From contig NZ_BMLV01000001.1 in NCBI RefSeq assembly GCF_014645495.1, positions 810,410-874,409 of the forward strand: a DNA stretch of 64,000 nucleotides, read 5' to 3'. The position numbers and the translations under genes were made by a program. Source of the stretch: Cloacibacterium rupense (lineage in GTDB: Bacteria; Bacteroidota; Bacteroidia; Flavobacteriales; Weeksellaceae). This document shows positions 2,146 through 48,661 of this stretch, piece after piece. Every line of letters begins with the position of its first letter. Within the stretch, counting starts at the first letter, position 1. The notes under the pieces were generated by a model. The model was not told the origin of the DNA and did no database searches. It saw only the letters and a list, made by a program, of their open reading frames with translations.

Positions 2146-3228
2146 TTAATTATGATTAGCTTTGAAACCCTCCATCAAATTGATAAAATCATCAAATAGA
2201 TAATTCGCATCTTCAGGACCAGGGCTAGCTTCAGGATGGTACTGAACTGAGAAGCAAGGATGAATTTTGTGCCTTATCCCTTCGTTTGTCCTATCATTAA
2301 GAGCTATATGTGTAACTTCTAAATCTGTATTGGCTAGAGATTCTTCATCTATTGCATACCCGTGATTTTGAGAAGTGATGGCCACTTTATTGGTTTTTAA
2401 ATCTAAAACAGGATGATTACCTCCCCTATGTCCGAATTTTAATTTGTAAGTTTTAGCACCACAAGCTAAGCCAATTAATTGGTGCCCTAAACAAATCCCA
2501 AAAATCGGAACTTTGCCTAATAAGCTTCTAATCATTTCTTGAGCATGAGGTACATCTTGCGGATCACCAGGCCCGTTAGAAAGCATAATTCCGTCTGGTT
2601 TCATGAGAAGGATTTCTTCAGCAGAAGTATCTTGAGAAACCACTATAATATCACAATTTCTTTTAGAAAGTTCTCTGATGATACCTAGCTTAGAGCCAAA
2701 ATCTACCAAAACTACTTTGAAGCCTTTTCCTGGCGCAGAATATGGTGTTTTTGTAGAAACCTGCTCTACTTGATTGGTTGGAAAATTTTTAGATTTCAAA
2801 TCTTGAATTACCGTTTCAGTATCTGTATCAAAACTCACAATTTTACCTTTTACTACTCCTTTATTTCTAATGATTCTAGTAAGTCTTCTAGTATCTATAC
2901 CTGAAATACCGGTAAGATTTCTTTTTTTGAATAATTCGTCTAATGACATTTGACTTCTAAAATTAGAAGGGAAATCACAAAGTTCTTTTACAATAAGACC
3001 TTTAATGGCAGGCTCTATACTTTCAAAATCGTCTCTATTGATACCATAATTCCCAATTAATGGATAGGTCATGCAAACGATTTGCCCACAATAAGAAGGA
3101 TCTGACATCAATTCTTGATAACCAGTCATTCCGGTATTAAAAACCACTTCACCCTCTGTTTCGTGATTTATACCGAAGCCTTCTCCCACAAAAACTTCTC
3201 CTGTTTCTAAAACTAATTTACTTTTCAT
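2146..3228 (-). CDS. carA: Carbamoyl-phosphate synthase small (glutaminase) subunit
   Basis: 360 residues, normal family length. It hydrolyses glutamine and channels ammonia to CarB. The N-terminal CarA domain (about residues 1-150) carries LETGEVFVGEGFG and FNTGMTGYQE; the C-terminal class I glutamine amidotransferase domain has the nucleophile elbow FGICLGHQLIG with Cys246 and the VQYHPEASPGP motif giving His331 and Glu333. It lies 63 nt upstream of carB. It is separated from pyrB by a perfect hairpin terminator (3373-3401), so it probably starts from its own promoter; a TAATTTTG (-7-like) lies at 3279-3272 but I see no good -33 partner. Confidence 0.97.
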   Translation of the reverse strand: MKSKLVLETGEVFVGEGFGINHETEGEVVFNTGMTGYQELMSDPSYCGQIVCMTYPLIGNYGINRDDFESIEPAIKGLIVKELCDFPSNFRSQMSLDELFKKRNLTGISGIDTRRLTRIIRNKGVVKGKIVSFDTDTETVIQDLKSKNFPTNQVEQVSTKTPYSAPGKGFKVVLVDFGSKLGIIRELSKRNCDIIVVSQDTSAEEILLMKPDGIMLSNGPGDPQDVPHAQEMIRSLLGKVPIFGICLGHQLIGLACGAKTYKLKFGHRGGNHPVLDLKTNKVAITSQNHGYAIDEESLANTDLEVTHIALNDRTNEGIRHKIHPCFSVQYHPEASPGPEDANYLFDDFINLMEGFKANHN

Positions 3229-3372
3229 TATTACTTTTAAGATTTATCTAATTTTAATTAAAAAACCTAAACAAAATTACAAAAAATTAAATTTAAAAAG
3301 ATAAAAAATCTAAATAAATAAATTTAACAGTAATTTTTATATTTTTATAAATTTCTACAAATTCTATGATAT

Positions 3373-3401
3373 AAAAAATGAGAGCATCACTCTCATTTTT
3401 T
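3373..3401 (-). terminator. Intrinsic terminator after pyrB
   Basis: A perfect 12-bp inverted repeat, AAAAAATGAGAG / CTCTCATTTTTT, with a 5-nt loop (CATCA). Read on the minus strand it ends in a run of six T just after the pyrB stop, and so separates pyrB from carA. Confidence 0.85.
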
Positions 3402-3405
3402 GAAA

Positions 3406-4305
3406 TTATTTTATTTCTTCAAACTCAAATGATTGCTTTTCTAAAACGTATTTCAATATCGCCATTCTCGCATAGACGCCATTGCTCATTTGCTTGAAAA
3501 TCCTACTTCTCTTACATTCTACCAAATCACCATCTATTTCTACCCCTCTATTAATAGGTGCTGGATGCATAATAATGGCATTAGGCTTCATTTTTTTCTC
3601 GCGTTCTTTTGTTAACCCGTATTTTTTGAGATATTCTGAAGCAGTTAATTTCATTTTTTCTTGATGTCTTTCGTGTTGAATTCTCAGCATCATCAACACA
3701 TCTACTTCTTTTAATAAATTATCAAAAGAAAGATAAGTACCATTAACCAACATAGCTTCATCAAACCAATCTACAGGACCAGAAAAATATACTTTAGCGC
3801 CTAATCTTCTTAAAGTATCTGCATTAGAATTGGCAACTCTACTGTGTTTTACATCACCTACAATCCCAACTTTTAATCCTTTGAAATCTCCAAATTCTTG
3901 TTTAATAGTCATTAAATCTAGAATAGCTTGACTAGGATGATGCCCTACTCCGTCACCAGCGTTTACTAATGCCAATCTAGCGTCTTTTAATTCATCATAA
4001 TACCTTGTTTGTTGATGGCGAATAACCGCAACATTAATACCAATTGCTTCCAGCGTTTTTATGGTATCTAGCAAAGTTTCTCCTTTATTAATTGAGCTTT
4101 TTTTCTCATCAAACTGCACAAGATGTAAACCCAATTTTTTCTCGGCAATTTCAAAACTAACTTTAGTTCTTGTACTATCTTCAAAAAATAAATTAGCAAC
4201 AAAAACGTCACTTTTTGCTTTTACTACTTTTCCATTAGCAAAATCTAGAGCTTCTGAGAGAATGCCAGAAATGCTATCTGTGGATAATCTTGATAATTTA
4301 ATCAT
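3406..4305 (-). CDS. pyrB: Aspartate carbamoyltransferase catalytic subunit
   Basis: 299 residues, a little shorter than the E. coli catalytic chain. It condenses carbamoyl phosphate with aspartate, the committed step of pyrimidine synthesis. The carbamoyl-phosphate loop is [13 protein letters not shown] (Ser44-Thr45-Arg46-Thr47); [10 protein letters not shown] and the aspartate-binding [12 protein letters not shown] segment near residue 245 are intact. No pyrI regulatory gene is visible nearby. The ATG at 4305 is preceded by an attenuator-like leader (4306-4422) with a short U-rich reading frame, suggesting UTP-dependent premature termination and not protein-based feedback alone. Its own terminator follows the stop codon. 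Confidence 0.97.
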
Positions 4306-4326
4306 AACTCAAAAAAATATAAAAAA

Positions 4327-4351
4327 AAACGAAGCCGATACGACTTCGTTT
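4327..4351 (-). terminator. pyrB leader attenuator (intrinsic terminator before the gene)
   Basis: On the minus strand AAACGAAG, a 9-nt loop and CTTCGTTT form an 8-bp stem followed by an unbroken T run, ending about 20 nt before the pyrB ATG. There is no minus-strand gene between this hairpin and the pyrB promoter other than the 22-codon leader frame, so it can only act on transcripts heading into pyrB. The leader stop codon lies 2 nt before the 5' arm, so a ribosome stopped there would cover that arm and block the hairpin. Confidence 0.8.
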
Positions 4352-4353
4352 GA

Positions 4354-4422
4354 TTAAAAAAATATTATTGTAACGGTTTGAAAACCGATATTTACTATAG
4401 ATATGTAACCTTTTAGTTTCAT
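4354..4422 (-). CDS. Putative pyrB leader peptide (22 residues)
   Basis: ATG at 4422, TAA at 4356-4354; the product starts MKLKGYISIV and ends TVTIIFF. The last codons are ATA ATA TTT TTT TAA, so the transcript has a run of seven U (4362-4356). A perfect 6-bp inverted repeat CGGTTT-TC-AAACCG (4387-4374) ends 11 nt before that run, the spacing expected for a hairpin-stabilised polymerase pause with UTP as the next nucleotide. The arrangement (pause hairpin, U tract inside a reading frame, stop codon, terminator) is that of the enterobacterial pyrBI leader. Translation is inferred: the ATG begins only 5 nt after the -7 box, so initiation would be nearly leaderless. Confidence 0.6.
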   Translation of the reverse strand: MKLKGYISIVNIGFQTVTIIFF

Positions 4423-4427
4423 TGTTG

Positions 4428-4458
4428 CAAATATACATATAAAGTAAATGCTTCCAAA
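4428..4458 (-). promoter_or_regulatory. pyrB promoter (Bacteroidota -33/-7 type)
   Basis: Minus strand TTTG (4458-4455), 19-nt spacer, TATATTTG (4435-4428). This matches the Bacteroidota housekeeping consensus TTTG / TAnnTTTG. Expected start of transcription is a few nucleotides downstream, at or next to the leader ATG (4422). Confidence 0.75.
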
Positions 4459-4508
4459 ATTTTTATAAAAAATTATTTTTCTTTAACATTTTAATTGCAA
4501 AATTAGTA

Positions 4509-48484: not shown

Positions 48485-48515
48485 TTTGCAAAAATTAAAA
48501 TACTTTATATATTTG
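48485..48515 (+). promoter_or_regulatory. trp operon promoter
   Basis: TTTG (48485-48488), 19-nt spacer, TATATTTG (48508-48515), a full match to the Bacteroidota consensus and the same -7 box and spacer as the pyrB promoter. Expected transcription start is at or next to the leader-peptide ATG at 48521. Confidence 0.8.
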
Positions 48516-48520
48516 TACCA

Positions 48521-48583
48521 ATGAAATCAACAATGAACAAAAACTGGTGGTGGCACTTATACTCTTCGCTGAGTCTAAGCTAA
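48521..48583 (+). CDS. trpL: trp operon leader peptide (WWW)
   Basis: Twenty codons from ATG 48521 (or 16 from the ATG at 48533): the core is MNKNWWWHLYSS, with three consecutive TGG codons at 48545-48553. Ribosome stalling here under tryptophan shortage leaves CGCTGAGTCT (48567-48576) free to pair with AGACTTCAGCG (48626-48636), the 5' arm of the terminator, with one bulged base. When tryptophan is plentiful the ribosome runs to the stop at 48583, covers that segment and the terminator can form. The ATG is 5 nt after the -7 box, so the peptide is probably translated from a leaderless transcript. Confidence 0.9.
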   Translation: MKSTMNKNWWWHLYSSLSLS

Positions 48584-48624
48584 ACTGCTATGGAAACGTT
48601 CTACGTAAACTAATTTCATAAAAG

Positions 48625-48661
48625 AAGACTTCAGCGATTTATCCGTTGAAGTCTTTTTTTT
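48625..48661 (+). terminator. trp attenuator terminator
   Basis: AAGACTTCAGCG (48625-48636) and CGTTGAAGTCTT (48644-48655) pair over 12 bp with one G-U, 7-nt loop, then eight T. It stands before trpE and its 5' arm is shared with the antiterminator formed with the leader-peptide region. Confidence 0.9.

Follow-up and report, generated by a model that had tools for sequence, protein, structure and literature searches.

How is pyrB controlled in a family where PyrR is not found above its cut-off, and what does the short leader in front of the gene contribute? The leader considered here (4458-4306, minus strand) lies within the window, the whole 64,000 nt stretch of DNA that was analysed. Judging from sequence, it is probably a convergent, protein-free UTP attenuator of the pyrBI type that stands in for PyrR, with a UTP response, polymerase pausing and termination as its predicted activities.

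The promoter, start codon, 22-codon frame, U tract and coordinates given by a first-pass annotation of the window all hold on re-reading (Table 1), and its spacing between the leader hairpin and the T7 run is exactly 11 nt (4374 to 4362). Two structures needed revision. In particular, the leader hairpin is present but has 5 pairs instead of 6 bp once its UUCA loop is counted; the terminator keeps the long U run and the stop codon 2 nt ahead of its stem, but that stem has 11 pairs instead of 8. By itself, the whole-leader fold of the window sequence is only modestly unusual (z = -2.1). Throughout the 64 kb, there are only three TAnnTTTG-N5-7-ATG sites, two of which lead to a terminator: those of the pyrB leader and of a trp leader.

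Table 1. Features of the pyrB locus, in window coordinates.
Feature	Position	Strand	Remarks
Promoter	TTTG 4458-4455, 19 nt, TATATTTG 4435-4428	-	Bacteroidota -33/-7 type
Expected transcription start	4422-4423	-	From spacing, 4-5 nt behind the -7 box; would be the A of the ATG or 1 nt before it
Leader frame	4422-4354	-	ATG 4422, 22 codons MKLKGYISIVNIGFQTVTIIFF, TAA 4356-4354
Leader hairpin CGGTT-UUCA-AACCG	4387-4374	-	Proposed pause hairpin; 5 pairs
U tract T7	4362-4356	-	11 nt from the leader hairpin; proposed UTP-sensitive pause
Predicted intrinsic terminator	4351-4321	-	11-pair stem and 3-nt loop 4351-4327, T9 4329-4321
pyrB, aspartate carbamoyltransferase catalytic subunit	3406-4305	-	Controlled gene; NF002032 and TIGR00670 over cut-off; ATG 4305
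carA-like gene	2146-3228	-	Downstream of pyrB, with an intervening terminator and what may be its own promoter

Two other elements of the window bear separate mention. The trp attenuator before trpE (48508-48661) comprises TATATTTG, an ATG at 48521 that lies 5 nt behind it and would by this spacing be near-leaderless, the leader MKSTMNKNWWWHLYSSLSLS and a terminator with T8; it has three TGG codons and a stop 43 nt before the terminator, neither of which the pyrB leader has, and its best fold has the 5′ arm of the terminator paired to leader sequence (single-sequence p = 0.11). Further, a terminator (3402-3372) lies in the gap between pyrB and the carA-like gene (3229-3405, minus strand), as does a TAATTTTG box with AGGTTTTTTAATT behind it. 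The T6 run is kept in locus L001, and the TAATTTTG/T6 arrangement was not seen by eye in the other loci of the family that were printed. An early T6 run of this kind resembles UTP-sensitive slippage promoters, such as that of codBA.

The first-pass annotation had made its proposal depend on conservation of the frame and terminator in close relatives, and the proposal survived that comparison. Within the window's own family (f1; five of its eight named records are given as Weeksellaceae), PyrB was matched in 262 of 296 genomes and in all 7 genomes of the window's genus; among the 34 f1 genomes with no pyrB match, 15 were tested, all lacking an aspartate carbamoyltransferase match above the cut-off. 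The regions upstream of pyrB numbered 118, with 110 from genomes and 8 from the named records, some being the same assemblies. A leader was recognized by a TAnnTTTG box, an ATG (allowed 2-12 nt behind it) and a terminator before pyrB, and this full layout occurs in 114 of the 118 regions. These leaders comprise 91 distinct sequences that fall into 41 clusters under 85% identity. The four regions without the layout are three from genus g16 (L184, L185 and L186) and a fragment missing the pyrB start (L187). Matches to carA are present in many of the same f1 stretches, with other frames intervening in some.

Individual members of the family show arrangements of their own. In genus g16 (L184-L186 and L245-L248), reading of the frames shows that in 6 of 7 regions a frame of 64-83 codons with a TTG start extends across a different terminator before pyrB, as the E. 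coli pyrL frame does; L184 has neither the long frame nor the different terminator. One leader (L176) has 123 nt between its terminator and pyrB, compared to 17-41 nt in the others, together with an early stop in its leader frame. Moreover, one genome (G017) has two pyrB copies (L096 and L133), each with an attenuator-like leader, possibly as a result of contamination.

The leader frame is open to the terminator in 39 of the 41 clusters, compared to a mean of 10.3 and a maximum of 20 in 1000 dinucleotide shuffles; the +1 and +2 frames reach the terminator in 2 and 13 clusters. The first in-frame stop lies between -8 and +4 from the stem in 29 clusters, in or behind the stem in 10, and 11-16 nt before it in two (L176 and L177). 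A conserved stop-to-stem distance and synonymous constraint in the frame had also been expected, and neither was borne out: among frames that get as far as the U/A-rich end, a stop at the stem is no more frequent than expected (0.74 versus 0.62 in shuffles), and third codon positions carry no excess across the 41 clusters. Since that excess is missing, it is the open frame that argues for translation of the leader. Further, the leader peptides diverge widely, and the ATATT motif, present in 35 clusters, falls in each of the three codon phases (25, 7 and 3 clusters), so that nucleotides have been kept and not amino acids. The sequences therefore indicate that the frame is conserved rather than the peptide.

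Covariation in both hairpins had been suggested as a check. The terminator has two-sided changes at 5 of 9 consensus pairs; RNAalifold on a plain alignment (A1) found this terminator and missed the leader hairpin, probably owing to leader stems that are offset from one another in the alignment. A fixed-interval energy test was therefore used instead. Across the 41 clusters, the summed fold energy of the interval before the terminator is -263, whereas 300 shuffle sets give -141 (sd 12.6), for a z-score of -9.6, and a control interval upstream of the promoter yields z = -0.4. Singly, the hairpin reaches p = 0.05 in 16 of the 41 clusters, with p = 0.13 for the window's leader; it is real as a set, not one leader at a time. 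Overall, the observation made in the window is confirmed, and the family comparison puts the leader far beyond chance because of the open frame in 39 clusters and this z-score. Behind the hairpin, the first UUU begins at a median of nt 12 in the 40 clusters scored (nt 12 in the window), and the distance from hairpin to UUU is 10-14 nt in 29 of the 40 and outside this range in 11. The E. coli pyrL leader (NC_000913) has its first UUU at nt 11 behind the hairpin.

The start of the leader has a feature that is absent from the first-pass annotation. In all 114 leaders, the ATG lies 5-7 nt behind TAnnTTTG, within a search that allowed 2-12 nt. At many F. johnsoniae promoters, the -7 box is reported to lie 4 or 5 nt from the transcription start (PMC6847099), and in F. 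psychrophilum the box is reported at -12 to -5, with leaderless mRNAs making up only 5.5% (PMC9723704). Because of the box-to-ATG distance and this published Flavobacterium spacing, the leader AUG should be no more than about 3 nt from the 5′ end, which would make the transcript a near-leaderless mRNA.

Sequence comparison establishes the layout, the open frame, the hairpin as a set, the U tract and the terminator, with their conservation, as well as the absence of PyrR; the mechanism proposed on this basis is as follows. RNA polymerase would begin with the A of the leader AUG or a nucleotide adjacent to it, and a ribosome would load onto the 5′ end at once. The small hairpin, and the U tract about 12 nt later, would then pause the polymerase, and for longer when UTP is scarce. 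At low UTP, the ribosome would catch up and translate the whole leader frame, whose end by sequence lies against the terminator's 5′ arm or inside it; a ribosome in that position would prevent the terminator from folding and pyrB would be transcribed. When UTP is plentiful, the polymerase would run ahead, the terminator would fold and transcription would end before pyrB. UTP could thus be metered with neither a regulatory protein nor a ligand-binding RNA. The ribosome-blocking step has direct support in E. coli, as a stop codon relocated to 5 bp ahead of a terminator is reported to lower termination from about 90% to below 10% in a translation-dependent manner (PMC4824070). The pausing step draws on the pyrL model, which describes UTP-dependent pausing at low UTP and a hairpin pause (PMC10135430); counting against it, one study finds the E. 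coli pyrL pause to be helped by neither its hairpin nor NusA, though at a site about 24 nt from the earlier one (PMC9291695).

The best of the alternatives, though an unlikely one, is a translation-coupled attenuator that is blind to UTP and serves as a readout of coupling in general, of growth rate or of the capacity for translation, with a U tract that merely mirrors A/U-rich composition. A stop placed at the terminator would work with any ribosome lag (as PMC4824070 indicates), and the leaders are indeed A/T-rich throughout; yet within the same leaders, the T frequency is 0.58 at positions -16 to -6 before the stem, compared to 0.28 elsewhere, and C falls to 0.03 over the last 16 nt. This T-enriched tract before the terminator is found in 41 of 41 clusters. 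The hairpin at about the pyrL distance and the position before pyrB also weigh against an attenuator that ignores UTP, as does the standing of the pyrB leader within whole genomes. In particular, a sequence model (R1) placed the pyrB leader first in each of 7 genomes, far above all other matches (73-112 bits, the next best being 49 and 37), where some of the pyrB leaders scored had helped to build the model. The 16 inspected among 22 other matches had no such leader, many of them lying at the 3′ ends of long frames; the scan covered 150 first-look candidates per genome, from which leaders of other pyr genes with different sequences could escape.

The distribution of regulators bears on what the leader would replace. 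PyrR (NF003549) was over the cut-off in 0 of 34 f1 genomes, of which 7 have no pyrB match and 5 are under 90% complete, with a best score of 24.5 bits against a cut-off of 138 in the window's own genome; in contrast, it was over the cut-off in 23 of 23 genomes representing other families of the order. In these families PyrR is linked to pyrB, and at 16 of their loci inspected by eye, the DNA before pyrB looks like the end of a pyrR-like gene. The suggestion that the leader acts in place of PyrR is thereby upheld. PyrI (PF01948) was found in 0 of 28 genomes (25 from f1 and 3 from other families) by a search whose control matched 7 of 14 genomes. The results speak against two candidates: a PyrR-regulated leader, by the 0 of 34 result, and an enterobacterial pyrBI leader acquired by descent, by the missing PyrI and by the lack of a frame of about 44 codons running through the terminator. 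The attenuator would replace the PyrR control that is expected in the other families.

The gene itself may have a different origin. The window's PyrB is about 60% identical to that of Bacillus and 38-45% identical to the closer PyrBs among the other Flavobacteriales matches listed. A PyrB tree of 48 rows places the other Flavobacteriales together, set apart from both f1 and the Bacilli on a branch of 3.45 changes per column. These relationships suggest that pyrB was replaced by transfer in f1, and it is left as a suggestion because the tree does not show f1 as a single clade. Taken together, a reasonable but less secure reading is that the Weeksellaceae lost the PyrR-pyrB module of their order, now have a pyrB that is Bacillus-like, and gained a UTP meter that needs no protein and sits on a near-leaderless mRNA. 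This would be a second origin of pyrBI-type attenuation, with a likeness that extends to a first UUU 11-12 nt behind the hairpin.

An RNA-binding protein or ligand-binding RNA of a kind as yet unknown could instead read the leader, which is improbable. Hairpins are conserved before a biosynthetic gene, PyrR is tied to that gene elsewhere in the order, and many stems have a GGC/GCC core that a protein might read (GGCA/TGCC in 8 of 41 clusters, with a G-C third pair from the loop in 33). Yet PyrR is over its cut-off in none of the f1 genomes tested and no other regulator is known; over their full length, 31 of the 41 stems are different, and loop size ranges from 3 to 8 nt. Moreover, no Rfam 15 family exceeds its gathering score between 4000 and 4800 of the window (the best same-strand overlap with the leader is 19.2 bits versus 58.7), and a structure that competes with the terminator shows no sign in the set of 41 clusters, because the terminator's 5′ arm, taken without its partner, is less paired than in shuffles: its mean pairing probability is 0.34, compared to 0.45, and falls below all 60 shuffle sets. 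Low pairing is a property of the set, as the window's leader alone is not unusual (0.41 versus 0.47). The same result makes a trp-type attenuator, in which stalling at starved codons frees an antiterminator, a very remote prospect: a leader frame and terminator are present and a genuine trp leader, MKSTMNKNWWWHLYSSLSLS, precedes trpE 44 kb away, but the pyrB leader peptides have no shared regulatory-codon run by eye (their commonest residues are I, F, N, L and D), and in the window the stop begins 5 nt ahead of the stem, with 29 of 41 clusters at -8 to +4, versus 43 nt in the trp leader.

If the UTP-responsive pyrBI-type reading is true, the race between ribosome and polymerase arose as a nucleotide sensor at least twice and with nearly equal spacing, the second time in a phylum whose promoters and translation starts are unlike those of E. 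coli. It would also explain how a family without PyrR regulates pyrimidine synthesis, and would offer a natural system for testing how transcription and translation are coupled in Bacteroidota.

Attenuation of the pyrBI kind is itself known; what appears not to have been described is a version in this lineage with a near-leaderless start and a stop at the stem, in genomes without PyrR or PyrI. Among the titles and abstracts found in searches of open-access literature, none describes such a leader. The f1 leaders share with E. coli pyrBI and its PyrL a position just before the same gene, a short leader frame, a hairpin followed by UUU at about the same distance and a terminator just before pyrB; blocking of that terminator by a ribosome, reported for E. 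coli (PMC5021804, PMC10135430), is expected here. They differ in that the E. coli pyrL frame has 44 codons and runs through the terminator, with its first UUU 28 nt before the stem, whereas f1 frames of 21-26 codons stop at the stem in 29 of 41 clusters and would start near-leaderless. Further, f1 has no PyrI match and a Bacillus-like PyrB.

In the PyrR leaders of Bacillus, uridine nucleotides likewise control pyr transcription through a terminator. The f1 leaders depart from these, and from the PyrR control that gene linkage indicates in other Flavobacteriales, by having no PyrR over the cut-off and no antiterminator fold. Within the flavobacteria, strong clues to amino-acid attenuators with leader peptides are reported for F. 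psychrophilum (PMC9723704); these have a leader peptide and a terminator in common with the pyrB leader, but precede amino-acid operons, and the pyrB leader has no codon run. Finally, the leaderless polycysteine attenuators of mycobacteria, described as sensing cysteine by codons and acting on downstream translation (PMC9031893), also begin a leaderless mRNA with a short attenuating frame; in f1, by contrast, the proposed signal is a nucleotide and the proposed target a terminator.
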